NCBI GenBank assembly: GCA_902793335.1
Contig: CADBCZ010000015.1
Location: 1-56,056 of the forward strand
Direction: 5' to 3'
Source of the DNA: an uncultured Lachnospiraceae bacterium
Lineage (GTDB): Bacteria > Bacillota > Clostridia > Lachnospirales > Lachnospiraceae
DNA length: 56,056 bases
Position 1 is the first letter of the stretch. Each line of letters opens with the position of its first letter. The position numbers and the translations under genes are program-made. This document shows positions 1-33,349 of this stretch, piece after piece. The notes under the pieces are model-generated. The model saw nothing but the letters and a program-made list of their open reading frames with translations, was not told the DNA's origin and searched no databases.

Positions 1-117
1 AAACTATACCGAATAAAGGAAGATGTTTCCACTGCTTTTTTAGATAAAGTAAAACTGCGCCACAGCCTTGGCAGGCCATCGCGCAGCGATTTTGTTCAAC
101 CCCAATTTATAAAAATG

Positions 118-123
118 TATAAT
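118..123 (+). promoter_or_regulatory. possible -10 box for the ferritin-like gene
   Basis: TATAAT stands about 50 bases before the first gene. The best -35 candidate, TTGTTC at 92-97, is 20 bases upstream, so the spacing is long. Bases 1-90 hold nothing else that I can name. Confidence 0.35.
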
Positions 124-172
124 TTTTGAAAAATGTGAAACACTAACAAAAAAGGAAAGAAGGTAATCTAAA

Positions 173-604
173 ATGAAAGATCAGACAGTAGATTTATTAG
201 ATCAGGTAAATACCGGCTGCAAAATGGCTATTAACAGTATGAAACAGGTGAAGGAATATATAGTTGATGAGAAGCTAAAAAATCTGATCACAAACTATAC
301 CGATGAACATGAAAGGCTTGAGAAGGAAACAGGCGACCAGCTGGCCAGATATGGTAAGATGGAAGAAAGTCCGGGTCTTATGGCTTCGGCAATGTCATGG
401 ATAAGTACGGAGGCAAAGCTTCTTATCAAAGATGATGCCAGACAGATTGCAAAGATTATAATGGATGGGTGCAATATGGGAATTCAATCAGTTGCAGAAT
501 ATCTCAATAAAAGTGACAATGCTTCACCTGAAAGTGTTCATTTAGCAAAACGATTGATAAAGACCGAAGAAGATCTCATGGGAGAGATGAAACAGTTCAT
601 GTAA
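173..604 (+). CDS. ferritin-like domain protein (DUF2383-like), 143 aa
   Basis: Small soluble, all-helical protein without signal peptide or membrane segment. The helices start with DLLDQVNTGCKMAINSM and continue through an EHERLEKE-type helix, the arrangement expected of a ferritin-like four-helix bundle of the DUF2383/DUF892 type found in many Clostridia. The ExxH-like pair in helix 2 (DEHERLEKE) could bind metal, but I cannot show a full di-iron set. The start has an AAAGGAAAGAAGG ribosome site. It stands alone, because the next gene has its own promoter. Function is unknown; stress or metal storage is only a guess from the fold. Confidence 0.6.
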   Translation: MKDQTVDLLDQVNTGCKMAINSMKQVKEYIVDEKLKNLITNYTDEHERLEKETGDQLARYGKMEESPGLMASAMSWISTEAKLLIKDDARQIAKIIMDGCNMGIQSVAEYLNKSDNASPESVHLAKRLIKTEEDLMGEMKQFM

Positions 605-620
605 TAGGTGCCATTTTGTC

Positions 621-649
621 TTGAAAGTCCTAATCATTTTTCGTATAAT
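621..649 (+). promoter_or_regulatory. sigma-A promoter of the phenylacetate-CoA ligase gene
   Basis: TTGAAA (621-626), a 17-base spacer and a perfect TATAAT (644-649) lie between the ferritin-like gene and the ligase. The transcript would start near 656 and carry a leader of about 85 bases. Confidence 0.7.
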
Positions 650-666
650 TAATTTTAGTGTCAAAA

Positions 667-709
667 GTCAAGCTGCTTTGGGTTTGTGCTGAAAGCAGTT
701 TGGCTTGAC
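667..709 (+). other. leader hairpin upstream of the ligase gene
   Basis: GTCAAGC (667-673) pairs with GCTTGAC (703-709), and TGCTTT (674-679) with AAAGCA (692-697), with a small bulge. No U-run follows, so it is not a simple terminator. It may stabilise the mRNA or take part in control. Confidence 0.4.
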
Positions 710-742
710 GGCATTAAAATAATCTAAAGAATACGAGGAATA

Positions 743-1984
743 ATGATTATGAAGTTGAGCAAACAGCAATTAGATCAGGTAAATGATAGGATTAAAGCAC
801 TCGTTTCTGCAGGAAGCTTCTATGGAAAGAAACTTAAAGAAGCAGGAATTAAAAGTGTTAACAGTCAGGAGGAATTTGAGAAACTTCCGTTTTCAGAGAA
901 AAATGATCTTAGAGAGGCATATCCTCTTGGACTTATGACTGCTCCGGAGGAAGATATTGTAAGGATTCATTCTTCATCGGGAACAACAGGACTTCCGGTT
1001 ATTATTCCATATACAGCCAAGGATGTTGATGACTGGGCTATACAGTTTGCAAGATGCTATGAGATGGCAGGAGTTACTAAGCTTGACCGTATACATATTA
1101 CACCGGGATATGGTCTTTGGACTGCAGGTATCGGCTTCCAGTGGGGAGCAGAGAAGCTTGGTGCAATGGTTATTCCTATGGGTCCCGGTAATACAGATAA
1201 GCAGATTCAGATGATGATCGATATGAAATCAACGGTTCTGTGTGCAACATCTTCATATGCGCTTTTGCTTGCAGAAGAGATTGAGAAAAGAGGAATCAAG
1301 GATCAGATTCATTTAAAGAAGGGTATTATCGGTTCTGAGCGCTGGGGTTCTAATATGCGTGAAAGAATCTCAAGTATACTCGGCATTGAGTTGTATGACA
1401 TTTACGGACTTACAGAGATCTATGGTCCGGGAATCGGAATCAACTGCCCTAATGAGAGCTATATGCATTATTGGGATGACTTTGTATATCTTGAGATTAT
1501 CGACCCTGTAACAGGCGAGAATCTTCCTGACGGTGAGTGGGGAGAGATAGTAATAACCACACTTGTCAAGGAGGGTGCACCTCTTATCCGTTATCGTACA
1601 CATGATCTTTCAAGAATCATTCCGGATAAATGTTCATGCGGAAGTGGATATCCGAGAATTGATGAGATCAGAGGAAGAACAGATGATATGATCAAGATCA
1701 AGGGTGTAAATGTATTCCCTGCTCAGATAGAAGAGATACTTGCACAGTTCCCTGAGGTTTCATCTGAATATCAGATTCATATTTCACACCTTGAAGGTAA
1801 GGATACTATGAGACTTTATGTTGAGACTGATGGTACGGTTGATTTTATCAAGCTTGCAGAGAGGGTGGCTTCTAAGATTAAGAGCAAGATTGGATTTACA
1901 CCACTTGTTAAGGTTGTTGAGATTGGCGTGCTTCCAAGAAGTGAGAAGAAATCCAAGAGAGTAATTGATGAGAGATACCAGTAA
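743..1984 (+). CDS. paaK: phenylacetate--CoA ligase family protein, 413 aa
   Basis: Member of the ANL adenylating superfamily, PaaK branch. It activates an aryl acid with ATP and forms the CoA thioester in the cytoplasm. The phosphate-binding loop HSSSGTTGLP lies near residue 80, IYGLTEIYGPG gives the YGxTE-like motif near residue 220, and the C-terminal lid domain has IKIKGVNVFP. Length is normal for the family (about 430). The ATG at 743 follows GAGGAATA. It is monocistronic with its own promoter. In gut anaerobes this family often serves phenylacetate or indoleacetate metabolism; no other pathway gene is near, so the substrate is not determined. Confidence 0.88.
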   Translation: MIMKLSKQQLDQVNDRIKALVSAGSFYGKKLKEAGIKSVNSQEEFEKLPFSEKNDLREAYPLGLMTAPEEDIVRIHSSSGTTGLPVIIPYTAKDVDDWAIQFARCYEMAGVTKLDRIHITPGYGLWTAGIGFQWGAEKLGAMVIPMGPGNTDKQIQMMIDMKSTVLCATSSYALLLAEEIEKRGIKDQIHLKKGIIGSERWGSNMRERISSILGIELYDIYGLTEIYGPGIGINCPNESYMHYWDDFVYLEIIDPVTGENLPDGEWGEIVITTLVKEGAPLIRYRTHDLSRIIPDKCSCGSGYPRIDEIRGRTDDMIKIKGVNVFPAQIEEILAQFPEVSSEYQIHISHLEGKDTMRLYVETDGTVDFIKLAERVASKIKSKIGFTPLVKVVEIGVLPRSEKKSKRVIDERYQ

Positions 1985-2192
1985 GCAACTGAAAGAAAAT
2001 GAATAAGAAAGATGAGAGCATTTATCAGAAATGCCTAATGATTACAGAGAGGGAAAAGATTCATTTAATATATATGCATATCAATTGGAAGATGAATCCG
2101 GATGGTACATTAATAACAAAAATAATGCTAAATAACAATTTTGGGAATATAGTGTTAAAATTGCAAAAATAAGTTTGCACAAATAAACAATC
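1985..2192 (+). other. intergenic; one doubtful 57-codon ORF
   Basis: An ATG at 1999 opens a 57-codon frame ending at 2172 (begins MNKKDESIYQKCL). It has no good ribosome site and no recognisable motif. It reads somewhat like a decayed protein tail, and I would not annotate it as a gene without homologues. Confidence 0.2.
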
Positions 2193-2229
2193 AAAGCCCA
2201 TGACAGATAATATTTCTGTCGTGGGCTTT
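2193..2229. terminator. bidirectional rho-independent terminator
   Basis: A 15-bp stem of 2193-2207 and 2215-2229 (one G-T pair), with a 7-base loop. T-runs follow on the plus side and A-runs precede, so it can serve both the ligase gene and the convergent lipoprotein gene. Confidence 0.85.
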
Positions 2230-2252
2230 TCGTAACCTGGAAAAACTATTAC

Positions 2253-2816
2253 TTAGTTTAATAGACCGTTATCCAAACATTCCGTACTCTTCTTATCGTT
2301 CTTTTTTGTTCCGGAAGATTTATTATCTGATTTATTACTGTCAGAGGAAGAGTCTGCCTTTAAAGACTCCTCTAATGCTTTATCAGACGCTTCTTTGTCA
2401 TCTGTAACGTATTCTTTAAGGACATACCCGTCTTTCTCGTCAAATTCAACTTTGATATAATCACCGTAAGTTTCGTATGCAATCAATGTACTTCCTACCG
2501 GAACTATACCAAGATCCTCGGATGAGGCTGATGCTTCAGCGTGAAGGGTGATGCTTTCTGTGGTATACATTGTAGTGCCCTCATCGGAAGTAGCTGCATC
2601 ATCTTTGGCTGTCTCGGATGAGTCTGCTTCAGTAGCATCATCTTTATCGTCGGCTGCTGTATCTTCCTTGGCAGAATCGTTTGCGTTTTCTGCCTCTGTC
2701 GCTTCTGTTGTTGCAGTGTCTGCCGCCACATCTTTATTTCCGCCACACGCAGTAAGACTTAACCCAAGTGCTAACGTTGCAGCAGCTATTATACATTTGT
2801 GTCTAAACTTTTTCAT
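2253..2816 (-). CDS. lipoprotein with low-complexity acidic linker and SH3-like domain, 187 aa
   Basis: The start is the ATG at 2814-2816 (MKKFRHKC), preceded by AAAGGAGAAACAAT; a longer frame upstream lacks a ribosome site. A hydrophobic signal peptide ends in a lipobox (LSLTACGG), so the Cys is probably lipidated and the protein anchored outside the membrane. It is followed by about 60 residues of Ala/Asp/Glu/Thr-rich linker, then a bacterial SH3-like segment (YTTESITLHAEASASSEDLG ... DGYVLKEYVT), a fold that often binds cell-wall peptides. A Ser/Lys-rich tail ends the protein. It is transcribed towards the 2193-2229 terminator. Role unknown, likely in the cell envelope. Confidence 0.8.
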   Translation of the reverse strand: MKKFRHKCIIAAATLALGLSLTACGGNKDVAADTATTEATEAENANDSAKEDTAADDKDDATEADSSETAKDDAATSDEGTTMYTTESITLHAEASASSEDLGIVPVGSTLIAYETYGDYIKVEFDEKDGYVLKEYVTDDKEASDKALEESLKADSSSDSNKSDNKSSGTKKNDKKSTECLDNGLLN

Positions 2817-2849
2817 ATTATTGTTTCTCCTTTGTATTTGCTTCCATGT

Positions 2850-3118
2850 TAAGGCAATTGAAAATCTCATATTTGTTACGTTTTGCTCTGTACATATTAT
2901 ACAGCTTCCATAGACATGGTGCTTTGGAGCCGCCGGTACTTAACGAATGCATAGCATGAGTTTAGTACCGCTGCGAGCGACAAGCAGCGAGATCCCCTCT
3001 CTCTTAGCGAATGCGAAGCATGAGGTTAGAGACAGGGCATGCCTTGTGCTGCGTGCCTGCTATGGAACTGTTTAATATGTTCAGAGCATAAGAATATCAA
3101 AAACTTTCAATTGCCTAA
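2850..3118. repeat. MITE-like hairpin element, about 265 bp
   Basis: The two ends form long imperfect inverted repeats. AAGGCAATTGAAAA at 2851-2864 matches in reverse the end TTTCAATTGCCT near 3105-3116, and further in GCTCTG-ACATATTA-ACAG-TTCCATAG occurs on both arms (near 2890-2920 and 3055-3085). The centre holds two related hairpins, CTTAACGAATGCATAGCATG and CTTAGCGAATGCGAAGCATG. No ORF for a transposase is present. The stop codon of the transglutaminase gene lies inside the right end. A related element lies at 4985-5125. Confidence 0.6.
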
Positions 3119-3819
3119 ATTTCCTTTTTCTTCTTGTTAAAATATCTGTAATGCTTCTTGGCGCCATATTTGAATTTCCATCCCGCTTTATGAGTCTTCT
3201 CAAAATTAGGATCAAAAACGTAATTCTTTTTAGACAATTTAATGGTTGTCCATGCGTGTGCCCCGAAATTGGAAGGTTTTCCGTTCTTTAATGCCTGAGG
3301 AACATATCCTCTTACAAATGTGGCATCGTAACCGAGAACCTGTGCCATAAGAGTAAATGTAGCCGCCTGCACATTACAGTCGCCTTTGTTCTTGGTAAAT
3401 CCGTAGGTGCCGTAATACTCTAAAGCCTTGTCATCCTTTTTGATTTTCTTTGAAATATTGGTATATGGCAGTTTTGAGGACCATTTAAATGCTTTTTTAA
3501 GACAGGAAAGCACTTCCTTGTCACTGGAAGCGGCAGCTGGAACAGCTTTTAACTTTACCAGTCTCCTGGCAGCTTTCTCATAAACGCCTTCCCATTTGAC
3601 GGCGATACCGTCTGCATCAATCTTATAATATGATTCCTTGTCATTGGCAGTAATCTTAACAATACATATATCCTTTGCCAATTCGCCATTCTCATTGTAA
3701 TAGTGGAGAACGCCATCTTCCTCAATAAGGCAGGGCTCTGCGGCATGAGTTTTTGTAAATGGCAGTATTACAAGAACAAGAAATGCTATGGATATAAGCC
3801 ATGATAATCTCTTTTTCAT
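3115..3819 (-). CDS. secreted transglutaminase-like protein, 234 aa
   Basis: A Sec signal peptide (residues 1-27, cleavage after THA) is followed by two short glucan-binding-like repeats (GVLHYYNENGEL, SYYKIDADGIAV; about 35-75) and a transglutaminase/protease-like domain with the expected triad: Cys148 in GDCNVQA, His188 in GAHAW, Asp203 in FDPNF. Such domains act on glutamine or cysteine-linked acyl groups and can cross-link or cleave surface proteins. It is last in the minus-strand series 9171-3115, 92 bases behind the preceding gene, probably co-transcribed. A sequence-unrelated copy of the same architecture is at 9391. Substrate unknown. Confidence 0.8.
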   Translation of the reverse strand: MKKRLSWLISIAFLVLVILPFTKTHAAEPCLIEEDGVLHYYNENGELAKDICIVKITANDKESYYKIDADGIAVKWEGVYEKAARRLVKLKAVPAAASSDKEVLSCLKKAFKWSSKLPYTNISKKIKKDDKALEYYGTYGFTKNKGDCNVQAATFTLMAQVLGYDATFVRGYVPQALKNGKPSNFGAHAWTTIKLSKKNYVFDPNFEKTHKAGWKFKYGAKKHYRYFNKKKKEI

Positions 3820-3910
3820 TTTCCATAATCTCCTATAATGTTATATTGATAATGTCGTATCTGTATAGCATAGCTGAATAGATACGTAATCTCTATGTTA
3901 AGGATAAAAT
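3820..3910 (-). other. intergenic hairpin between two secreted-protein genes
   Basis: The stretch contains CGTATCT and AGATACG as a perfect 7-bp stem with a 17-base loop (about 3856-3886). It has no clear T-run, so it may be a processing or mRNA-stability hairpin inside the operon. Confidence 0.3.
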
Positions 3911-4723
3911 TTAATCAAGGTCGATAGGACCTGCACCGTCCATGTAATATACACCTGTGCTTGTATTCTTTGTCATGGATATCACTATGTTTTTATAGTA
4001 GTAATTATAGCCCTTGTATCTCTTCAGCATGCTGTCATTTATAGAATCGTCAGGGCTCATGTCAAAAGGATTGCAGGAGCTGGTGGTTTTAATCTTTACC
4101 GGTTTGCCGAATTTCTTTTTGACTGTTCCTGCAAGCTTGGTAGATTTCTTGCCACGCTTTACAACCTTCTGTAAAGCCTTGGATTTTTTCTTGTCATACA
4201 CTCCGGTCTTCTTGTTGAAGAAAACAAGCTTAGAGTCGGTTGCCCAGAGACCTTTTGCCTGATGACCATTCTCATCAAAACCGTATTGCTTGCCGTCAAC
4301 TTTCTTAAGAACGACCTTGGTGGTTCTAAAACCGCTGATACTGTCAGCTTTATAAGCCTTGGCATCACTTCCGAAATAGTAGGTAAAATCGCCCTTTTTC
4401 TCAGTCGCAGTTCTCCAATCGTTGATAACAGCTTTACCGGCTTCAATATAATACAGTTCAAACGAATCATCGTCTTTTATCTTCTTAAGTCCTGAAAAAT
4501 CGGCCTGCAAAACGCCATCCTCAAAATAGAGGTAATCCTGATCGACCTTTACCACACCGCTTGCCTTAATAAGCTTGCCGTCCTCTTTGACATAGTAGAG
4601 TGAGTCGGCAGGATTGTAGCCTTCCGTAAGCTCGGTTGCATTTACAGGCAGAGGTTTATTTACCATGCTTACAGTAAATGCGGTCATAAGGGCTAACATT
4701 AATAATCTTGGTTTTAATCTCAT
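3911..4723 (-). CDS. secreted protein with cell-wall-binding-like repeats, 270 aa
   Basis: The signal peptide (residues 1-29, ...LPVNATEL) is followed by five or six degenerate glucan/choline-binding-like repeats of the form YYVKEDGKLIKASGVVKVD, YLYFEDGVLQADFSGL and YGFDENGHQAKGLW, which make up most of residues 40-170. The tail is basic and has no known catalytic motif. It starts three bases after the carrier-protein stop (4727), so it is translationally close to that gene and belongs to the same operon. It is probably a wall-associated protein whose job relates to the modified polymer, but no enzyme activity can be read from it. Confidence 0.7.
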   Translation of the reverse strand: MRLKPRLLMLALMTAFTVSMVNKPLPVNATELTEGYNPADSLYYVKEDGKLIKASGVVKVDQDYLYFEDGVLQADFSGLKKIKDDDSFELYYIEAGKAVINDWRTATEKKGDFTYYFGSDAKAYKADSISGFRTTKVVLKKVDGKQYGFDENGHQAKGLWATDSKLVFFNKKTGVYDKKKSKALQKVVKRGKKSTKLAGTVKKKFGKPVKIKTTSSCNPFDMSPDDSINDSMLKRYKGYNYYYKNIVISMTKNTSTGVYYMDGAGPIDLD

Positions 4724-4726
4724 GCG

Positions 4727-4954
4727 TCATCCCTCCTTAAGCTTGCAGATCATATTCCATAGTGCATCCGCACTGTTAAAGTTCTCCGGTATTATCTCAG
4801 CGGGAGTTACGCGAATGCCATAGGTTTCGCTTATCTCGCTTATAATAGATATGATATCAAATGATGACAAAATCTTGTCATCTACAAGTGCCTTCTCGTT
4901 TTCAAAGTCCACATCCGGACAAATGTCCTCCAAAATTTCCATTAATTCTTCCAT
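4727..4954 (-). CDS. acyl/peptidyl carrier protein, DltC-like, 75 aa
   Basis: Small acidic helical protein of normal DltC length (about 75-80). The likely phosphopantetheine serine is Ser31 in KILSSFDII; where DltC proteins usually have Asp-Ser, this one has Ser-Ser. The C-terminal half has TPAEIIPENFNSADALWNMIC, nearly identical to the second carrier protein at 30581. The ATG follows AAGGAG. It would carry an amino acid, loaded as a thioester by the adenylating enzyme at 5136, for transfer across the membrane via the MBOAT protein at 7657. A hairpin element separates it from the upstream ligase gene. Confidence 0.82.
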   Translation of the reverse strand: MEELMEILEDICPDVDFENEKALVDDKILSSFDIISIISEISETYGIRVTPAEIIPENFNSADALWNMICKLKEG

Positions 4955-4984
4955 AAGTAATCTCCTTTATGTGTTTTATTATAT

Positions 4985-5125
4985 TAGGTAATTGCGAAAC
5001 TGTAATTTTCTGTTTTGTCTTGTGTAAATAGAATATTTTTACGACAGCATTAGGAACGTTAGCCGAGTAAAAATATTCTATTTACACAAAGACATTCAAA
5101 AAGTATAGTGTTTCGCAATCGCCTG
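4985..5125. repeat. MITE-like hairpin element, about 140 bp
   Basis: A perfect 23-bp inverted repeat (5020-5042 with 5067-5089) surrounds a 24-base loop. The outer arms GGTAATTGCGAAAC (4987-5000) and GTTTCGCAATCGCC (5110-5123) match at 12 of 14 positions. The ends resemble those of the 2850-3118 element (AGGCAATTG). It sits between the ligase and carrier-protein genes, so its transcript would form a long stem inside the operon mRNA. Confidence 0.65.
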
Positions 5126-5135
5126 AAAGTTCTTA

Positions 5136-6638
5136 TTAAAGTGTCTGTTTTAAAGCCTTTCTATCAAGCTTTCCGTTTGCGGTAATGGGCAGTTCGTCCA
5201 TCTGACGAAAAACATTGGGTATCATGAAGTTCTGGAGATAGTTGCGAGCCTGTCCTACAATCTCTTTCTTGCTAATATCCCCCTGATAGAAGCAGACTAT
5301 CTTATTCTTCTTTTCATCGAAAACACAGCAGCTTCTCTGTATAGCATCTATTTTTTCAAGGGCAGCCTCGATTTCTCCGAGTTCGATTCTGTGTCCCATA
5401 TGTTTTATCTGAAAATCCTTGCGAGAGGTAAAGCATAAATCTTTATTCTCGTCATAGTAGGCAAGATCGCCTGTGCGGTAAATGGTTTCATTCCACCTTC
5501 TGTTTAGCGGGTTGTTGGTAAACACCTTTGCGGTCTGATCCGGATTATTATAATATCCCAGTGAAAGACAGGTTCCGCTTACACATATCTCGCCTTCGAC
5601 ACCGACAGAAGTGATCTCCTTGTCATTCTCGTCTAAAAGGAATACGTTTTCATTAGGAAATGCCTTGCCGATAGGAAGCATATCACCCGGTTCGAAAGCT
5701 TTGTCTATCTCGTAATATGTGCAGTTGCAGGTTATTTCGGTAGGACCGTAGAGATTGACAAACCGTGCTTCCGGGTAGTAGTTTCTCCAGTAATTTAGAT
5801 GTTTTATAGGCATTGCCTCTCCGGAAAACATTATGCGTTTGATAAATGCAGGCTTCTTGTATGACAAACCGTTAAGAATGGATACGATTCCAAGCGCCGA
5901 TACCGCCCAGGTAAGATTGGTCACTTTTCTGTCATCGAGGAAATCGAGCAATTTAACAGGAATTGAAAAGTATTCCTTTGGTATGAGCTCGACTGTTGCA
6001 CCGACAGCTAAGCCGCTGTATATGTCCTTGACGGAAACATCAAAATCCAAAGGTGCCTGATTACCCAGCACATCATTTTCATCTATATCAAATGTATTAG
6101 TGAATTCATCTATAAAGTCTATTACACTGCGGTGACTTACAACAACTCCCTTTGGTATGCCTGTCGAACCTGATGTGAAAAGCACATATAAAGGATTAGT
6201 GTTGACGTGAGCCTTGTTGACCTGTGATAAGAGCAAGGAATCAGGCTCTCCTTTTTTCAGTTCATCCGCAAGGAGTATATCTCCCGAAAAGGAAAGGCTG
6301 GATGCCTGATTAGTGTAGTTTTTATTTGTTATAAGTATTTCGGGTTCTAATGTACTTATTATCTGATTGAGACGAAGAGTCGGCTGGGTCGGATCTAATA
6401 TGACATAAAAACCCCCTGCCTGTACTATGCCCATCATAATCTCGATGGTAGGTACGTTCTTGTCCATCATGATTGGCACAGGCTTTCTTGCGCAATTTCG
6501 TTTTGCAAGATTTGTGCCTATAACTTTTGATATGTCATGCAACTCTTTAAATGTCACGGAAACTTTCTCGTCGGCAAATGCTGTTTTTGACGGATTGTGT
6601 TCTGCCTGCTTTTTTAAGTAATCAAGTACATTATTCAT
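5136..6638 (-). CDS. amino-acid adenylating enzyme, DltA-like, 500 aa
   Basis: Stand-alone adenylation domain that activates an amino acid with ATP and loads it on a carrier protein. Core motifs are in order: A3 FTSGSTGIPKG at 154-164, A4-region PLDFDVSVKDIY at 197-208, A5 NLYGPTE at 295-301, A7 YRTGD at 387-391, and the A10 lysine Lys490 in NGKLDRKAL. Length matches DltA (about 500) and there is no fused carrier. It lies between the SGNH gene (64 bases upstream) and the carrier gene. It is the only enzyme of this type in the window, so it may also charge the carrier at 30581. Specificity cannot be read safely; D-alanine is possible but unproven. Confidence 0.85.
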   Translation of the reverse strand: MNNVLDYLKKQAEHNPSKTAFADEKVSVTFKELHDISKVIGTNLAKRNCARKPVPIMMDKNVPTIEIMMGIVQAGGFYVILDPTQPTLRLNQIISTLEPEILITNKNYTNQASSLSFSGDILLADELKKGEPDSLLLSQVNKAHVNTNPLYVLFTSGSTGIPKGVVVSHRSVIDFIDEFTNTFDIDENDVLGNQAPLDFDVSVKDIYSGLAVGATVELIPKEYFSIPVKLLDFLDDRKVTNLTWAVSALGIVSILNGLSYKKPAFIKRIMFSGEAMPIKHLNYWRNYYPEARFVNLYGPTEITCNCTYYEIDKAFEPGDMLPIGKAFPNENVFLLDENDKEITSVGVEGEICVSGTCLSLGYYNNPDQTAKVFTNNPLNRRWNETIYRTGDLAYYDENKDLCFTSRKDFQIKHMGHRIELGEIEAALEKIDAIQRSCCVFDEKKNKIVCFYQGDISKKEIVGQARNYLQNFMIPNVFRQMDELPITANGKLDRKALKQTL

Positions 6639-6701: not shown

Positions 6702-7670
6702 TCATTTCAGTACCTCAGCGAGTATTTTCGAAAATCTTCTCGCCGCATCTCCGTTCATATGCCCGTCAAGATCTGTATAACATGCAAGATCATGTTCTGT
6801 CATATCATAATATTGTCCGTAGTTAAAATTGATATATTCTACATCTGCCTTGCCAAAATAGTCTGAGTAGTATTCGTTAAGAGCAGCACTTCCCTCACGG
6901 CTTTCCACTAAAGCTCTGTCTGACAAAGGTGTGGTAACTGCAATAAGCTCAATGTTGTTATCTTTGCAGAGCTTGACGATCTCGTCTAAGTCGTCCATAT
7001 TCTTTTCTACGATATCCTCGGGAAACCATTCCTCGGCATAATCATTCTCTAACGTCTCTATGTCGACAGGATATCTCTCTATAAATCCGCTCTCGTGATA
7101 TTTCTGGGTCTCGGTTGCAAAACTATCCGCACTGTAATCACCCGACAGCTTCTTGCTAAGATTATCTTTTGCATGGCTTAACTCGTATGAGAGATCATAT
7201 TCATACCATGGAAAGAGGAGTGTGCGGAAATCGCATTTTATTACAGCATCCCTGAAGTATGAAAGTTTTGACACTGAAAGAGGAAACTCGTGAAAGAACA
7301 ATAAATAATTATTTCCCTCCTCCTTCTCGCGTACAAAGTATCCCGGAGACACCTCGTAGATTATGCGTTTTGGAGTGTGCCCATTTTCTATCATAAGTTT
7401 TATCATATAAAGAACATCTACGGGATATTCACCACCGACGCAGAGGTTGTGACCTGTTCGCCCTGTTATATCCTCCATAGTCTCAGGATCAATATTCATT
7501 TTGCCATGTGAGGTTCCGACAAACACATCATCATAGGTGTTGTTAGAGATAGCGTGTATATCATTCCTCATAAATGTGCATGGGTATAGTAAAGTGTCCG
7601 CCGCAACCAGGATGAACAGCAACACGATGATGATTCCAACGGCTGCTAAGGTTTTCTTAAAATTGTGCAT
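6702..7670 (-). CDS. membrane-anchored SGNH-fold protein, DltD-like role, 322 aa
   Basis: The start is the ATG at 7668-7670 (MHNFKKTL) with AAAGGA before it, overlapping the MBOAT gene by 14 bases; a longer frame to 7712 is less likely. One N-terminal membrane anchor (residues 7-29) is followed by an extracellular domain. SGNH-type signs are Ser54 in FVGTSHGKM and the C-terminal DLDGH block near residue 302. DltD and related proteins next to MBOAT acyltransferases are needed to pass the acyl group to the outer polymer, and the position here implies the same. Sequence is not close enough to call it dltD. Confidence 0.75.
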   Translation of the reverse strand: MHNFKKTLAAVGIIIVLLFILVAADTLLYPCTFMRNDIHAISNNTYDDVFVGTSHGKMNIDPETMEDITGRTGHNLCVGGEYPVDVLYMIKLMIENGHTPKRIIYEVSPGYFVREKEEGNNYLLFFHEFPLSVSKLSYFRDAVIKCDFRTLLFPWYEYDLSYELSHAKDNLSKKLSGDYSADSFATETQKYHESGFIERYPVDIETLENDYAEEWFPEDIVEKNMDDLDEIVKLCKDNNIELIAVTTPLSDRALVESREGSAALNEYYSDYFGKADVEYINFNYGQYYDMTEHDLACYTDLDGHMNGDAARRFSKILAEVLK

Positions 7671-9171
7671 ATATAAATCCTTTCGGTGCAGATGTGCATC
7701 CAAATATTCCAATCAGTAAAAACAATGTAATGTAGACTGCTGCCGCAACCGGTACCGGAAGCGAGCGTACCTTCTCTGAAACATTTACTCCCCTCTCCTT
7801 TAAGATACCGACAGTTACCATAAAGATACACCCTATTGCTATGATAAGCAGTGCCTGTGGAACGTATTCCGTCCCGCCTCTTCCGGCAGCGATAGCAAAA
7901 ACCTGTGACCAGTCAAGGTGAGTAAATGCCTGCTTTACCAGGTGATTGCCTTGTGTGAGTGTATCCGATCGGTCATAGAACCAGCGAAGATTAACGATTA
8001 TATAGGTTCTTATGATCTGGAATGCATTGTACCAGCGCTCTTTTCCGGATATATGTAAGGCTTTTTTCCAGTTCCTATATGTTCCGCCCATCAGTTCACT
8101 AAATGCAATGATACCACCGTTAAGCAGTCCATAGACAACATATTTCCAGCTTGCACCGTGCCAGATTCCAACCAGAAAGAATACGATAAAATCCGCAAGT
8201 GCTATCGGAATTATACGTCCCATTTTCTTCCCGAATTTCTTTCTTGACCAGCTTGAGAACTTGGTCATCCAACCGGATAAAGTAATCGGGTAGAACACAT
8301 AGTTCATCATCCATTCGCCAAGCGATATATGCCAGCGTTTCCAGAAGTCAGCCATAGACTTTGCGAGATAGGGCTGGCGGAAATTCTCTTCCATCTCGAT
8401 GCCGAAGAGATTGCCGATTCCGATTACTACATCGATACCGCCTGAAAAGTCGGCGTATAACTGGATTCCGTAAAATACAAGTCCGAGCAGGACAATGCCG
8501 TTATAAGTGTCGGGATCGTCCCATATAGCATCTGCAAAAATGCCCGCCCAGTCGGCTATTATCATTTTCTTGACATATCCCCATATTATACGCGATAATC
8601 CTTTGGTTATGGATTCCCACGAGAACTTATGCGGAGTGATAAGCTGCGGTGCTAATTTGTTATAGTTACCTATCGGGCCCTGCATGAGCTGTGGAAAGAA
8701 GGATATGAAAAGAGCGAATTTGAAGAAGTTCTTCTCTGCCTTTGCCTTTTTCCAATATACGTCCAACAGATAACCTATCGACATAAAGGTATAGAAGGAA
8801 ATTCCCAGAGGAAAAAGTATAGTTACACCCGGGATATTAAGCCTGCATACCGTGTTCAGAATATCTGTAAAGAAGTCAATATATTTGACTATAAAAAGCA
8901 TAAGAAAGCCGAGGATAACACCTAGGGTTACCACCCGTTTCAAGGTCTTAGCGGGTGCATTCTTTTCCTGTAAATGGTCGATGGCAAGTCCAAACAGCCA
9001 TACGACAATCGTTGAATACAGGATGAATATCAGGTAACGTGCTCCTCCCGCAAGATAATAGGTATAGCTAAAAATCAGAAGGACAATCCATCTGAGTTTT
9101 TGTGGTGCTATGTAGTAGCATAAAACTGCTGCTAAAACAAAAATTATAAATATATTTGAAATTAGTGACAA
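7657..9171 (-). CDS. MBOAT-family O-acyltransferase, DltB/AlgI-like, 504 aa
   Basis: Polytopic membrane protein with about 11 hydrophobic segments. The MBOAT signature GIWHGASWKY holds the likely catalytic His338, and the FWKRWHISLGEWM block is typical of the DltB/AlgI branch. It should take the aminoacyl group from the carrier protein and transfer it across the membrane. I chose TTG at 9169-9171 (MSLISNIF) because GGAGAGGG lies 5-6 bases upstream and because an upstream reading start would fall inside the -35 box. It is the first gene of the minus-strand operon 9171-3115. Confidence 0.85.
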   Translation of the reverse strand: MSLISNIFIIFVLAAVLCYYIAPQKLRWIVLLIFSYTYYLAGGARYLIFILYSTIVVWLFGLAIDHLQEKNAPAKTLKRVVTLGVILGFLMLFIVKYIDFFTDILNTVCRLNIPGVTILFPLGISFYTFMSIGYLLDVYWKKAKAEKNFFKFALFISFFPQLMQGPIGNYNKLAPQLITPHKFSWESITKGLSRIIWGYVKKMIIADWAGIFADAIWDDPDTYNGIVLLGLVFYGIQLYADFSGGIDVVIGIGNLFGIEMEENFRQPYLAKSMADFWKRWHISLGEWMMNYVFYPITLSGWMTKFSSWSRKKFGKKMGRIIPIALADFIVFFLVGIWHGASWKYVVYGLLNGGIIAFSELMGGTYRNWKKALHISGKERWYNAFQIIRTYIIVNLRWFYDRSDTLTQGNHLVKQAFTHLDWSQVFAIAAGRGGTEYVPQALLIIAIGCIFMVTVGILKERGVNVSEKVRSLPVPVAAAVYITLFLLIGIFGCTSAPKGFIYAQF

Positions 9172-9202
9172 TGTTCCCTCTCCGTTAAAAAAATATGAAT
9201 TT

Positions 9203-9231
9203 ATTATACTACTTTTGACAATTATATACAA
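9203..9231 (-). promoter_or_regulatory. promoter of the first Dlt-like operon
   Basis: Read on the minus strand, TTGTAT (9231-9226), a 17-base spacer and TATAAT (9208-9203) stand 32 bases before the TTG start of the MBOAT gene. This supports the downstream start codon. Confidence 0.7.
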
Positions 9232-28156: not shown

Positions 28157-29062
28157 TTATTCTTTGAGGAGAATATATTTTTTTAAATATTCTCCTATAT
28201 GACGCGTGACTTTTTTTGCACCGGAAAAGTTTAAGTGATCGCCGCCATCTTTTGTATCTTTTTTCCAATTGATTGTAAGTGACTTTTCAAGATTGAGGTC
28301 TATATAGGTGACAGAATTAGCAGCTGCCCATTTATAAATACCATTATGTTTTTTATATGACCAATTTTTGGGTGATGGTGTACTTACTAAAATTAACTTT
28401 ATATTATTATTGTCACAGAGGCTTTTGATTTGATTTAGATACTCAAGATTCTTTTTGGGTATCTTTTTTGTTTTTTTTGTAATTTTCATGTAGGCTCCGC
28501 CTCTATAGGGTATTGTGTTTTTTCGAATCACAAAACCTTTATTATTCTTTTTGTGCTTAAAGCGTTTTTTGGGTAAAGCTTTTTTTGCAAGAATTTTCCA
28601 ATCTGAGTGGTGGGCAAACATAGATAAATGATTGCTCAAAAAGTTCATGGCAATGTCTTTATCTGTGCCGGTGTTTTTGGGCTTACGGAATATACAGTTG
28701 GTTTCAAGGACAATTACTTTAGGGGCTTGTGTCCTGATGTTTTCATTTAGTATCGCATAAGTATCGCAAATATGTTGAGCTGCAGTTGCACATACGAAAG
28801 ATGATATATTAAACTCAGATGATAAGATTTTAGGATAAAATGTGGAATAACATTCACTATCTCCGTAGAATATTACCTGCAAACTGTCGTTTGGCTCATT
28901 TTTTATTTCGTTGATTTTATTATTTACGGCAATAGTATCATATATGTTTTTTTTGTTATCTTTATAGATAAATACCGTTAGTAGTGTTGATATAATGATC
29001 AGTCCGGTGAAAAATAAAACTGCTTTTATAATATTATTATACGTTTCTTTTGTATTATCCAT
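28157..29062 (-). CDS. membrane-anchored SGNH-fold protein of the second Dlt-like locus, 301 aa
   Basis: Start ATG at 29060-29062 (MDNTKETYNN), with GGAG directly upstream; longer frames use the ribosome site as codons. One membrane helix (residues 12-33) then an extracellular domain with the SGNH Ser69 in FYGDSECYS and the C-terminal block GGDHLNFSGAKK near 274-285. The same role as the protein at 6702 (transfer of a carrier-derived group to a surface polymer) is inferred from order, but the two are only distantly alike. The C-terminal region is very basic (KKTKKIPKKN). Last gene of the minus-strand unit 32030-28157. Confidence 0.72.
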   Translation of the reverse strand: MDNTKETYNNIIKAVLFFTGLIIISTLLTVFIYKDNKKNIYDTIAVNNKINEIKNEPNDSLQVIFYGDSECYSTFYPKILSSEFNISSFVCATAAQHICDTYAILNENIRTQAPKVIVLETNCIFRKPKNTGTDKDIAMNFLSNHLSMFAHHSDWKILAKKALPKKRFKHKKNNKGFVIRKNTIPYRGGAYMKITKKTKKIPKKNLEYLNQIKSLCDNNNIKLILVSTPSPKNWSYKKHNGIYKWAAANSVTYIDLNLEKSLTINWKKDTKDGGDHLNFSGAKKVTRHIGEYLKKYILLKE

Positions 29063-29088
29063 AGTTATCTCCATATAGTGTATTATGA

Positions 29089-30579
29089 TTAGTAAGCCGC
29101 ATATATCATGTCTATAACAGTATAGCCTGCACCATAGGCACCGGTTAAAATGATAGAAAATATCAAGGCATACCAAATGGCCCATCGAATGGGCAATTTG
29201 TAATTTGATATCACATCTCTCAGTTTTATATTTTTTTCGTGAATAAAATCAACGATAAATAATAAAATAATAGCAAAAAAACAAATAATCATGTCATATT
29301 TATCTATTCCCCAATTTGCATCCTTAAGTGACGAAAGGTGGAAATCAAATATTATTTTTTTAAACATGTTAAAACCGCTTGTTATTGACTTGGCACGAAA
29401 AAACATTTCACCTATGTTTACGATTACAAATAGTTTTAATGCTCTAAATGATGATATTAACAAGTTGCTTTCATATATAGAATGTTTTTGACAGAATTTT
29501 TCAATATGTGGTTCGCATATTGTTTCAATAAATATAAGTACAAAATAGTACATTCCATAAAATAAATAAGTTAAGCCTGCGCCGTGCCAAATACCATTTG
29601 TCAACCATACAAAAAATAAAGCTATAGTAGGAACAATCATTTTACTAATATTAATTCCGACAATTGTTTTGGCTTTTTTTGATAATTTCTTTAATGGTTT
29701 TGCTAAGGATATTGGATAGAAAATATAATCCTTAAGCCAGGTTCCCAGGGTGATATGCCACCTATGCCAAAAATCGGATGCGTTTTTGGCAAAAAATGGT
29801 TGGCGGAAATTTTCGGGAAGGGTAATGCTTAATGTTTCACTACTACCTATAATAATATCCATACATCCTGAAAACTCTGCGTAAAGCTGGGTTGTAAACA
29901 TAATTGCGCCAATTGCAATTACCGTGCCGTCATAGTTTTCGGGATGGAGGAAAATTTTATAAACAGCAGGTGCCAAATGATCGGCAATGACCATTTTTTT
30001 AAATAAACCCCATAATATTCGTTGGTAGCCGGAAGTAATGTTTGTATAACTAAGATCCTTGCCTGCAAATAACTCATTTTTCATGTTGGAGTATCTGCTT
30101 ATTGGTCCTTCGATTACCTGTGGGAAGTAACTAAGATATAGTGCAAGTTTTCCTATATTTTGTTCGCAACTAATAGTTCTTCTGCAGATATCAGTCATAT
30201 ACGATATAGTCTGAAGAGTATAATAAGATATACCTATAGGAGCTATAAAGCTTATACCAATTAATTTAAAGTACTTAAATACGATCAACATAGATAAGTT
30301 GAGAATAATTCCTATAAACAGAATAATACGTTTGTGTTTTTTTAACATTTTTCCGGTGTATTTATTGCTGCTGCCTAAACGATCAATCATTAATCCTGTG
30401 CAATAAGTAATTACAACAGCAAAAATGAAAAAAACAATCAACGCTTTACTTATCATTAAATAAAAAGCAATATCCACTACAAGAAGAAGGCACCAACGAA
30501 ATTTTGAAGGTGTCAACTTATATAATATCAATATTATAGGAAGAAATAAGAAGCTGTATGTGAGTAAATGGTACTCCAT
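29089..30579 (-). CDS. MBOAT-family acyltransferase, second DltB-like protein, 496 aa
   Basis: Polytopic membrane protein. The signature GIWHGAGLTYLFYG contains the likely catalytic His332, and FWHRWHITLGTWLKDY is the usual DltB/AlgI block. It begins one base after the carrier-protein stop and ends 26 bases before the SGNH gene, so all are one operon. It should take an acyl or aminoacyl group from the carrier at 30581. It is clearly diverged from the MBOAT at 7657 (many replacements, lower GC), so the two loci are probably not a fresh duplication. Confidence 0.85.
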   Translation of the reverse strand: MEYHLLTYSFLFLPIILILYKLTPSKFRWCLLLVVDIAFYLMISKALIVFFIFAVVITYCTGLMIDRLGSSNKYTGKMLKKHKRIILFIGIILNLSMLIVFKYFKLIGISFIAPIGISYYTLQTISYMTDICRRTISCEQNIGKLALYLSYFPQVIEGPISRYSNMKNELFAGKDLSYTNITSGYQRILWGLFKKMVIADHLAPAVYKIFLHPENYDGTVIAIGAIMFTTQLYAEFSGCMDIIIGSSETLSITLPENFRQPFFAKNASDFWHRWHITLGTWLKDYIFYPISLAKPLKKLSKKAKTIVGINISKMIVPTIALFFVWLTNGIWHGAGLTYLFYGMYYFVLIFIETICEPHIEKFCQKHSIYESNLLISSFRALKLFVIVNIGEMFFRAKSITSGFNMFKKIIFDFHLSSLKDANWGIDKYDMIICFFAIILLFIVDFIHEKNIKLRDVISNYKLPIRWAIWYALIFSIILTGAYGAGYTVIDMIYAAY

Positions 30580-30580
30580 T

Positions 30581-30811
30581 TCAGCATTCCTCCCTAAGAC
30601 GACAAATCATGTTCCATAAGGCATTGGCCGAGTTAAAATTTTCCGGAATTAATTCTGCCGGCGAAATATCAACGTCAAATGAATCTTCAATATCTGATAC
30701 AAGCGATAGTATATCAAATGAACTTAAGATATGATCATCAATAAGTGTTGTACAGTTAACTACGTCTTCGCATGGTAATATTTCTTCGAGAATTTCAATT
30801 AATTCATCCAT
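30581..30811 (-). CDS. acyl/peptidyl carrier protein, second DltC-like copy, 76 aa
   Basis: Start ATG at 30809-30811 (MDELIEILEE) with GGAGG upstream. The carrier serine is Ser31 in HILSSFDIL, with the same Ser-Ser replacement as the copy at 4727. The region PAELIPENFNSANALWNMICRL matches that copy at nearly every position, much more than the two MBOAT or SGNH proteins match. This suggests both carriers are recognised by the same loading enzyme. It sits between the decarboxylase and the MBOAT gene. Confidence 0.83.
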   Translation of the reverse strand: MDELIEILEEILPCEDVVNCTTLIDDHILSSFDILSLVSDIEDSFDVDISPAELIPENFNSANALWNMICRLREEC

Positions 30812-30833
30812 TTTGGTATCCTCCAATGTATAA

Positions 30834-32030
30834 TTATTTTTTACTGTTAAGAGTGTTAATTTCAATAACATCTCTTAGTACTTCTATTTCATTATTTTTA
30901 TGGACTAAAAGAACTTGTGGAAGTTCTCTGCTTAGAAATAAAGATATTCCTTCTGTAGGAGAATATGCCCCACAACGTTCAAATAAAATATAGTCATCAA
31001 TATGCGGCGATGATAATTCAGCAGTTTTAACCAGTATATCATTGGAAGTGCATAATGAACCGCATATGATATATTTTTGGATATCTTCCGTATTTTGTGG
31101 AGCGTCTTTGTTACGAATTAGACTGAGATAAGGTGTTTTCATTCCGGTTAATTGTCCATAATAGTTTAATTGATGAATTCCTCCATCCACAATTAAATAA
31201 TTGCTCTTATTAGTACTCTTGATGTCGATTATTTTTGTTATATAATAACCACAATTAGCTGCAATATAACGACCTAATTCGATGGTAATATTGGTAAAAG
31301 CAGTAATACTATGTAATTCATTAGTAAATTCATTTAATGATGTTGAAATATCGACATCGTCATTTGTGAAATATGGAAAACTAAGTCCCGGACCATATTC
31401 CAATTCAAGGTGTGAAGTATCCATATCGGATAATGCTTCTTTTATTTTATTGAGATGCGTTATGTCTTTAACAATTTTCTTTAAGTTTTTCTGTGTGCCG
31501 GAATAGTAATGAATTCCCTGTACTGTCGCAAGGTTATCGATTATTATTTTTTTGTAAACAGCGGTTAGGACAGATGTGTCCATACCAAATTGATTTCCGG
31601 AAGAGAGACGCAAAAGTAGTTTAGGCTTTTCGATGAGTTGAATATCGCTGTCGCTAATGGTTTGACGCAGTAACTCATATTGGTAGGGAGATTCAATAGT
31701 ATAAAAGCCTTCTCCTTTGCTGTATAAAAAGATATTTTTTAGTGATTCGAATGTTTTGTTTATACCCGATACAATGATTTTGTGCGGTGGGATATTGCAA
31801 CGTTTGCAAATTTCATATTCTCCCGGAGAACATACTTCAAATCGGTCTACTAATGTTGATAATACTTCAACAAGAAAAGGGTTGGCTTTCATTGCATAAC
31901 ATAATTTAACATTTTGGGGGAGATGATTTTTTATATTTTGGATGCTTTCGATTAATATATTTTCGTCAAAAATGTAGCTCGGCGTATTATATTCATTTAT
32001 TATAATATTAAGAGTGTTTGAGTTTATCAT
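30834..32030 (-). CDS. fold-III PLP-dependent decarboxylase next to a carrier protein, 398 aa
   Basis: Start ATG at 32028-32030 (MINSNTLN) follows AAGGGG. Alanine-racemase-fold decarboxylase of the DAP/ornithine decarboxylase type: PLP lysine Lys48 in CYAMKAN, His174 in HYYSGTQ, phosphate-binding GPG (213-215), ELGR (251-254), CGSLCTSND with Cys327 and Asp331, and Tyr356. Not lysA-like in context: no lysine genes are near, and the next gene, 22 bases on, is a carrier protein. BtrK of butirosin synthesis, from this family, decarboxylates glutamate while it is bound to a carrier, so an on-carrier reaction is a reasonable hypothesis here. Substrate unknown. Confidence 0.82.
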   Translation of the reverse strand: MINSNTLNIIINEYNTPSYIFDENILIESIQNIKNHLPQNVKLCYAMKANPFLVEVLSTLVDRFEVCSPGEYEICKRCNIPPHKIIVSGINKTFESLKNIFLYSKGEGFYTIESPYQYELLRQTISDSDIQLIEKPKLLLRLSSGNQFGMDTSVLTAVYKKIIIDNLATVQGIHYYSGTQKNLKKIVKDITHLNKIKEALSDMDTSHLELEYGPGLSFPYFTNDDVDISTSLNEFTNELHSITAFTNITIELGRYIAANCGYYITKIIDIKSTNKSNYLIVDGGIHQLNYYGQLTGMKTPYLSLIRNKDAPQNTEDIQKYIICGSLCTSNDILVKTAELSSPHIDDYILFERCGAYSPTEGISLFLSRELPQVLLVHKNNEIEVLRDVIEINTLNSKK

Positions 32031-32737: not shown

Positions 32738-32769
32738 ATACAAATGGATTCGTGATTAGGAGGGATATT

Positions 32770-33027
32770 ATGATTGCAATTAGACCGGTTTCTGATTTAA
32801 GAAATAAATTCACTGATATAGAGAAGGCAGTTAATGGTGGAGAACCTGTTTTTCTAACAAAGAATGGATATGGTTCAATGGTAGTAATGAGTGTAGATGC
32901 GTATTCGAGATTGAATCGTAATGTTGAGCAGGCTCTTGATGAAGCTGATGATTATGCTGAATTAAATCAAGAAAGAATGACACATGAAGATGTTTTTGAA
33001 AGAATTAGGAGATCGGTAAATGGCTAA
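32770..33027 (+). CDS. type II antitoxin, Phd/YefM family, 85 aa
   Basis: ATG 32770 (MIAIRPVSDLRNKF) follows TAGGAGGG. The N-terminal Phd/YefM fold (RPVSDLRNKFTDIEKAVNGGEPVFLTKNGYGSMVVMSVDAYSRL) binds DNA, and the acidic helical tail binds the toxin. It overlaps the toxin gene by eight bases. The palindrome over its promoter is the probable operator. Confidence 0.88.
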   Translation: MIAIRPVSDLRNKFTDIEKAVNGGEPVFLTKNGYGSMVVMSVDAYSRLNRNVEQALDEADDYAELNQERMTHEDVFERIRRSVNG

Positions 33028-33349
33028 TATTTCGTATTCATTAAGATATCTGCCTATTTTTTATAATGATCTTGAAGAACAGGTGTTATATATTTCTGAA
33101 GTATTAAACAATGTTGATGCAGCAAATGATTTAATTGATGCGGTTGAGTCAGCTATTATGAAAAGAGTTCCGAATGCAGAATCATTTGAACCTTATTACT
33201 CCAAAAAAGAACGTAAATATCCGTATTATCGTATTTACGTCAAGAATTATACGATATACTATGTAGTAATACCAAATGGTGAATGTGAAAGAATAATGGA
33301 AGTACGTAGGATACTTCATAATCTTCAAGACAGGAATAATTATATTTAG
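33020..33349 (+). CDS. type II toxin, RelE/ParE superfamily, 109 aa
   Basis: Compact ParE/RelE fold: ISYSLRYLPIFYNDLEEQVLYISEVLNN at the N-terminus and KYPYYRIYVKNYTIYYVVIPNGE ... IMEVRRILHNLQD at the C-terminus, with the usual RY/YR-rich core. ParE members poison gyrase and RelE members cut ribosomal mRNA; sequence alone does not decide which. Paired with the overlapping antitoxin. A second, unrelated toxin-antitoxin locus is at 52 kb. Confidence 0.82.
   Translation: MANISYSLRYLPIFYNDLEEQVLYISEVLNNVDAANDLIDAVESAIMKRVPNAESFEPYYSKKERKYPYYRIYVKNYTIYYVVIPNGECERIMEVRRILHNLQDRNNYI

Follow-up and report, generated by a model that had tools for sequence, protein, structure and literature searches.

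In the Dlt system the acyl group crosses the membrane from a carrier thioester, and both DltX and the acyltransferase PatA hold an acyl-shuttle tyrosine in a C-terminal FXYXXF motif (PMC12148441). Carrier-bound chemistry of another kind is described for macrolactam antibiotics: VinN, VinL and VinO prepare starter units with an adenylase, a stand-alone carrier and a pyridoxal 5'-phosphate (PLP)-dependent decarboxylase that requires the thioester first (PMC11284099), and FlvN/FlvO follow the same load-then-decarboxylate logic (PMC10662134). We analysed a 56,056-nucleotide (nt) window, the whole of contig CADBCZ010000015.1 (contig C15) in the 3.6-Mb draft genome (G000) of an uncultured Lachnospiraceae bacterium (GCA_902793335.1). 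It contains a four-gene operon encoding a PLP decarboxylase (DEC), a carrier protein (ACP2), a membrane-bound O-acyltransferase (MBOAT2) and an SGNH-fold protein. We favour, with moderate confidence, the view that this operon is a derived copy, lacking the adenylase, of a surface-acylation system with five genes, in which an amino acid would be loaded onto the carrier, decarboxylated there and exported to the cell surface. No description of decarboxylase-carrier chemistry coupled to MBOAT-SGNH surface acylation was found in the open-licence literature, a body that mostly leaves out subscription papers.

The usual cassette and its adenylase-less form

DEC was found in 17 of the 98 genomes of a first search, the window's own included, and nine of the 17 retrieved neighbourhoods showed the exact order ADN-DEC-ACP-MBOAT-SGNH, where ADN is a stand-alone adenylating enzyme. 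A profile made from the DEC alignment matched 88 of 397 family genomes at E 1e-60 (own genome included; 89 matches). The 88 loci outside the window, in 87 genomes, were scored with profiles built from the window and its relatives' loci, to which nine of the 88 also contributed; the limits were 2.5 kb for adenylase and carrier and 6.5 kb for five families. An adenylase lay within its limit of DEC in 85 loci and a carrier in 81, and all five families stood on one strand in 66. Three loci were scored without an adenylase: L313, and L038 and L299, which stop at a contig end or within about 2 kb of one. The seven scored without a carrier include two at a contig edge (L274, L310), two with the carrier slightly further off in the same cluster (L282, L040) and one, L309, with a 105-amino-acid (aa) PP-binding protein that the profile overlooked. 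L283 and L307 have no visible carrier and no contig end to explain its absence; they are the only unexplained cases of the decarboxylase occurring without a carrier. The first-pass annotation had named such an occurrence as a refutation of its reading, and the loci largely fail to supply one.

A second set, 80 named loci selected out of 461 relatives, is biased by similarity and overlaps the first (at least nine contigs were already in use, with further overlap); here 75 loci had an adenylase, and L133, L138, L162, L198 and L202 had none. Two gene orders predominate among these loci, ADN-DEC-ACP-MBOAT-SGNH (order A) and MBOAT-SGNH-ADN-DEC-ACP (order B). The window operon is order A without its adenylase, and a second operon in the window, hereafter the sister operon, is order B without its decarboxylase. 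The usual cassette is therefore adenylase, decarboxylase, carrier, MBOAT and SGNH protein, of which the window operon is a derived, adenylase-less form. In the relatives both orders include an adenylase, so the decarboxylase normally accompanies that enzyme and does not replace it. The first-pass annotation had it standing in place of the adenylase, which is true only locally. Chance adjacency of the genes was rejected on the 66 five-family loci and the second set.

The window operon, read from its upstream end, comprises:

30834..32030, minus strand: DEC, fold-III PLP decarboxylase, 398 aa (Lys48, Cys327-Thr328, Asp331), from Pfam, alignment, conservation and a structure model
30581..30811, minus strand: carrier protein ACP2, 76 aa, PP-binding, 58% identical to the sister-operon carrier over 62 aa
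29089..30579, minus strand: MBOAT acyltransferase MBOAT2, 496 aa, PF03062, under the DltB cut-off
29092..29109, minus strand: C-terminal acyl-shuttle-like motif MIYAAY of MBOAT2, pattern xxYxx[F/Y] (compare FXYXXF of PatA/DltX)
28157..29062, minus strand: SGNH-fold protein, 301 aa, with an N-terminal helix and GDSE and D-x3-H motifs, from alignment, an AlphaFold2 model and Foldseek

These genes form one tight operon (28157-32030), as the first-pass annotation had it, with all four frames intact and gaps of 22 nt (DEC to carrier), 1 nt (carrier to MBOAT2) and 26 nt (MBOAT2 to SGNH). Its GC content is 0.317, against 0.397 elsewhere in the counted window and 0.388-0.436 in the cassettes of seven relatives, which suggests late arrival or drift. 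A plasmid search gave no DNA match, and a first contig scan with a single-protein query found no relative. Just past the operon start, at 32752-33349, lies a type II toxin-antitoxin pair of the Phd/YefM-ParE kind.

Not all DEC loci carry the whole cassette. In 11 of the 88 the trio ADN-DEC-ACP is alone on the strand of DEC, one of them (L311) having MBOAT and SGNH genes adjoining on the opposite strand. Six trio loci (L039, L243, L249, L250, L269, L278) adjoin a purA-like gene, a housekeeping setting; the neighbour in L039 is an adenylosuccinate synthase by family match and the other five were judged by eye. The L267 trio lies inside a polysaccharide-type cluster with a DegT aminotransferase and EpsG. 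An MBOAT of some type was found in each of 17 genomes searched, including 12 whose loci are trio-only or unusual. In L036 (genome G016, positions 1-6303) a second DEC copy has SGNH and MBOAT genes on both sides and no adenylase or carrier adjoining. The divergent DEC-carrier-adenylase trio of L309 (5428-8647), with the 105-aa carrier, adjoins a 306-aa protein that has no Pfam match; a BtrH-like acyltransferase was suspected here by eye, and the assignment was dropped. The commonest neighbours of the 80 named loci, named by eye, were response regulators (23), ABC proteins (21) and kinases (20); a link to kinases was rejected, only seven loci having one within 300 bp of the cassette. DEC loci also occur in records titled Streptococcus suis, Slackia, Enorma, Treponema, Faecalicoccus and Acetobacterium. 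A search of Actinomycetota matched 63 of 346 genomes at E 1e-35, with seven strong matches (E 1e-104 or better, query genome included); the many weaker ones are probably other decarboxylases.

The decarboxylase and the predicted export proteins

DEC matches PF02784 (56.8-58.4 bits, cut-off 23.4) and PF00278 (52.2 bits, cut-off 23). Over 98 DEC sequences, the window's included and some of them duplicates, Lys48, Cys327 and Asp331 are invariant, and position 174 is split between His (51 sequences) and Gln (47). The first-pass annotation had picked out Lys48, His174 and Cys327; the positions are correct, but the histidine, which we take to be the PLP-stacking residue of the family, is not a family-wide feature. 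DEC carries a CTxxD motif (Thr in 91 sequences, Ser in seven), also present in BtrK and SbnH, where the genome's own LysA-like protein has CExxD. That protein, encoded on contig C3, is the product of the only other PF02784 gene in the window's genome (97.3 bits), and its best NCBIfam family is lysA at 278.8 bits, just below the cut-off of 297.9. DEC reaches only 140.3 bits with the same model (TIGR01048) and can be ruled out as a housekeeping lysA product; its best NCBIfam match, TIGR03099, gives 168.4 bits against a cut-off of 478.45, so membership of that family is ruled out too. In its fold-III PLP architecture, its catalytic Lys48 and Cys327 and its linkage to an adenylase and a carrier, DEC resembles decarboxylases of the VinO/BtrK type, and BtrK is among the structures closest to the DEC model, with an identity of only 22-23%.

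The carrier ACP2 is barely above the Pfam cut-off for PP-binding (21.3 against 20.8 bits) and MBOAT2 is well matched by PF03062 (61.6 bits, cut-off 27). The pattern xxYxx[F/Y] closes the C-terminus of all 92 complete locus MBOATs, a count that includes the window's two and some duplicates, and its tyrosine stands at the same position as the shuttle tyrosine of PatA and DltX; in these loci the carrier and a shuttle motif fused to the MBOAT thus occur together. The SGNH protein matched nothing in NCBIfam or Pfam at E 0.01, and its AlphaFold2 model (predicted local distance difference test score, pLDDT, 83.7) matches SGNH hydrolases including PatB and DltD in Foldseek. The locus therefore encodes an MBOAT with a shuttle tyrosine adjoining an SGNH-fold protein. 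The window's genome has two MBOAT genes, both within the window.

The sister operon and the probable supply of adenylase

The sister operon, about 21 kb from the DEC operon if measured to its adenylase, has the order MBOAT1-SGNH1-ADN-ACP1:

7657..9231, minus strand: MBOAT1, start uncertain, C-terminus FIYAQF, PF03062 54.2 bits
6702..7670, minus strand: SGNH protein SGNH1, start uncertain
5136..6638, minus strand: adenylating enzyme ADN, 500 aa, which probably loads both carriers, from TIGR01733, pocket residues and a tree
4727..4954, minus strand: carrier ACP1, 75 aa, with a weak DltC match and 58% identity to ACP2

Relatives of MBOAT1 are about 504 aa long, a length that would place its start near 9171. 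ACP1 has no Pfam match at E 0.01. Downstream, at 2253-4723, lie a protein with a sub-threshold match to choline-binding repeats, a transglutaminase-like protein and an SH3_3 protein; in L075, L077, L078 and L079 the sister operon is also followed by open reading frames of comparable size.

In a whole-genome search ADN was the only adenylase above the TIGR01733 cut-off of 317.4 (333.6 bits; the next scored 160.7 and 69.7). Adenylases were compared at 18 pocket and core columns, in sets that include duplicates and with GrsA numbers assigned by motif. Asp235, Val236, Lys239, Ser301, Cys330 and Asn331 are common to 84 of 85 DEC-linked adenylases (L042 deviates) and are shared by ADN; the residues at 236 and 301 are the bulkier, VinN-like ones. 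Seven of 21 DEC-free adenylases have the same six residues: six orthologues from sister operons, and L081, in whose genome (G026) DEC lies at the end of a different contig. The remaining 14 differ. A quick adenylase tree of 101 rows gathers the DEC-linked enzymes other than L042, L081 and the sister-operon clade into one group of 86 rows, with a Shimodaira-Hasegawa-like approximate likelihood ratio test (SH-aLRT) support of 95. The sister-operon clade (seven rows, support 100) nests inside this group at moderate supports (83 and 84), so a DEC-containing cassette is the probable ancestor of the sister operon.

The first-pass annotation had proposed that ADN serves the DEC operon, and its case is strengthened. 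Given the shared pocket, the position in the tree and the 58% identity of ACP1 and ACP2, while the two MBOATs are only 30% identical, ADN probably feeds both operons. Seven genomes with a DEC locus lacking an adjoining adenylase were searched whole (G000, G006, G013, G016 for its second copy, G134, G273 and G465), and in the first five a DEC-type adenylase is encoded elsewhere, that of G134 being of the L042 type by eye. G013 and G006 share a similar adenylase-less arrangement and also have the sister operon. A quick tree of 35 DEC rows joins the window to G013 (support 91, not starred) and puts G006 in another part of that larger group, so that the adenylase may have been lost once or twice.

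The sister operon also occurs where DEC does not. It is present in G001, G004, G007 and G027, truncated in G004 by a contig end inside the adenylase gene, and these genomes (80-94% complete) gave no DEC match at E 1e-20; each has one strong LysA-like PF02784 gene, and G001 also has a weakly matching protein of the YggS family.

Proposed chemistry and comparison with known systems

We propose that the adenylase, here supplied by the sister operon, would load onto the carrier an amino acid whose alpha-amino-carboxylate stays free, the likeliest candidates being aspartate through its beta-carboxyl and next glutamate through its gamma-carboxyl. DEC would strip that carboxylate on the carrier to leave a beta-alanyl- (or 4-aminobutyryl-) carrier, the MBOAT would transfer the acyl group to the tyrosine of its own C-terminal motif outside the membrane, and the SGNH protein would move it to a surface polymer, adding positive charge. 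Decarboxylation on the carrier, already suggested by the first-pass annotation, is to our mind the best reading of the linkage of DEC to adenylase and carrier in most loci, the closeness of BtrK among structures and the VinO/FlvO precedent.

Several observations weigh against this scheme. Z scores do not separate BtrK from diaminopimelate decarboxylases in comparisons with the DEC model. Lys239, which might hold the substrate carboxylate, is also present in five of the 14 differing DEC-free adenylases. By eye, the 30 most frequent clusters of neighbours around the 80 named loci include no prominent polymer-synthesis family. The binding loop between beta13 and beta14, one residue shorter in VinN as a feature of beta-amino-acid recognition (PMC11253843), is of equal length in DEC-linked and DEC-free adenylases, VinN entering this comparison by description. 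The draft genomes G273 and G465 have DEC and carrier and no adenylase of the DEC-linked type was found in them; G273 has only one of another type, and the adenylation domains of G465 all lie in a single 2988-aa frame. The DEC-free genomes G001, G004, G007 and G027 retain a sister operon with the same adenylase pocket, so that these genomes either would export the amino acid undecarboxylated or have come to use another substrate with the pocket unaltered. Finally, the example of IdnL3 shows that a PLP decarboxylase in such pathways can work on a free substrate before loading.

One explanation based on this last point reverses the order of steps: DEC would decarboxylate the amino acid while it is free and the adenylase would load what results, in the manner of IdnL3 followed by IdnL1 for incednine, with the surface product unchanged. 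We regard this as unlikely, since the adenylases of DEC-free sister operons keep the same pocket, which suggests a substrate independent of any DEC product and favours loading ahead of decarboxylation; in addition, the carrier gene directly follows DEC in many cassettes. Another possibility, which we rate as distinctly improbable, is that the adenylase loads one end of a diamino diacid such as meso-diaminopimelate and DEC acts on the other centre to leave a lysyl-type group on the carrier. DEC does share the fold family of diaminopimelate decarboxylases, Asp235 is conserved in the adenylases, and their loop is as long as in DEC-free adenylases and in those gramicidin synthase domains that align without a gap there; however, DEC has the CTxxD of BtrK and SbnH rather than the CExxD of its own genome's LysA-like protein, and direct loading of lysine would need no decarboxylase. 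The unusually AT-rich composition of the window operon and the lack of a matching adenylase in G273 and G465 could also be taken to mean that it is a decaying or mis-assembled fragment, no longer working since losing its adenylase. This seems very unlikely: four frames are intact, Lys48, Cys327, Asp331, the shuttle tyrosine and GDSE are retained, MBOAT2 is 70% identical to its counterpart in G013, and the arrangement is similar in G013 and G006, both with the sister operon.

Compared with these alternatives, loading followed by decarboxylation on the carrier remains our preferred reading, and it can be extended, tentatively and as something less likely than not, to a widespread second 'Dlt' in which aspartate or glutamate becomes a beta-alanyl or 4-aminobutyryl group on a carrier and is exported by an MBOAT-SGNH pair, the window lineage using one adenylase and two operons to place two surface groups, with and without the carboxyl. 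If this is so, many gut-type bacteria would carry on their surface an amine-containing group that is not D-alanine, chemistry that we know so far from antibiotic starter units would operate at the cell surface, MBOAT-SGNH export would be a modular outlet for carrier-bound chemistry, and a charge-changing surface modification of these bacteria would become directly testable.

Judged by family models, the five-gene system falls into none of the DltA, DltB, DltC, LysA and TIGR03099 families, as every cut-off is missed: ADN scores 288.4 bits against 559.85 (TIGR01734), MBOAT2 141.6 against 375 (TIGR04091), and both carriers are far under the DltC cut-off of 68 (NF003464; 25.8 bits for ACP1). The best family match of DEC, TIGR03099, and the ligase_PEP_1 family TIGR03098, which also matches ADN (195.1 bits, cut-off 592.35), are presumably associated with exosortase A, to go by their names; neither cut-off is reached, and the partner here is an MBOAT-SGNH pair. 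BtrK decarboxylates L-glutamyl-BtrI in the butirosin antibiotic pathway and is only distantly related to DEC, and its carrier loader is of a different kind. The Vin and Flv systems share with these loci an adenylase, a separate carrier and a PLP decarboxylase, whereas they deliver the product to a polyketide synthase and not to an MBOAT-SGNH pair, and the loop shortened in VinN is not shortened here. PatA/PatB and other MBOAT-SGNH pairs are alike in the FXYXXF-like C-terminal motif of the MBOAT and in PatB being a fold match of the SGNH model; PatA, however, uses acetyl-CoA (PMC12148441), while a carrier protein is encoded here. In gene content the loci resemble Dlt (DltA, DltB, DltC, DltD, DltX), with its stand-alone adenylase, small carrier, MBOAT and SGNH protein, which are found together with DEC in 66 of the 88 loci and split over two operons in the window. 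The differences from Dlt are the extra PLP decarboxylase, a shuttle tyrosine carried by the MBOAT itself rather than by DltX, and an adenylase pocket unlike that of the 14 DEC-free adenylases that do not belong to the sister-operon group, a pattern that does not decide for or against D-alanine. By analogy, the system may work like Dlt fed by a VinO-type step; the Dlt route and VinO/FlvO-type decarboxylation were known, and what appears to be new here is the proposed joining of carrier-bound decarboxylation to MBOAT-SGNH export.

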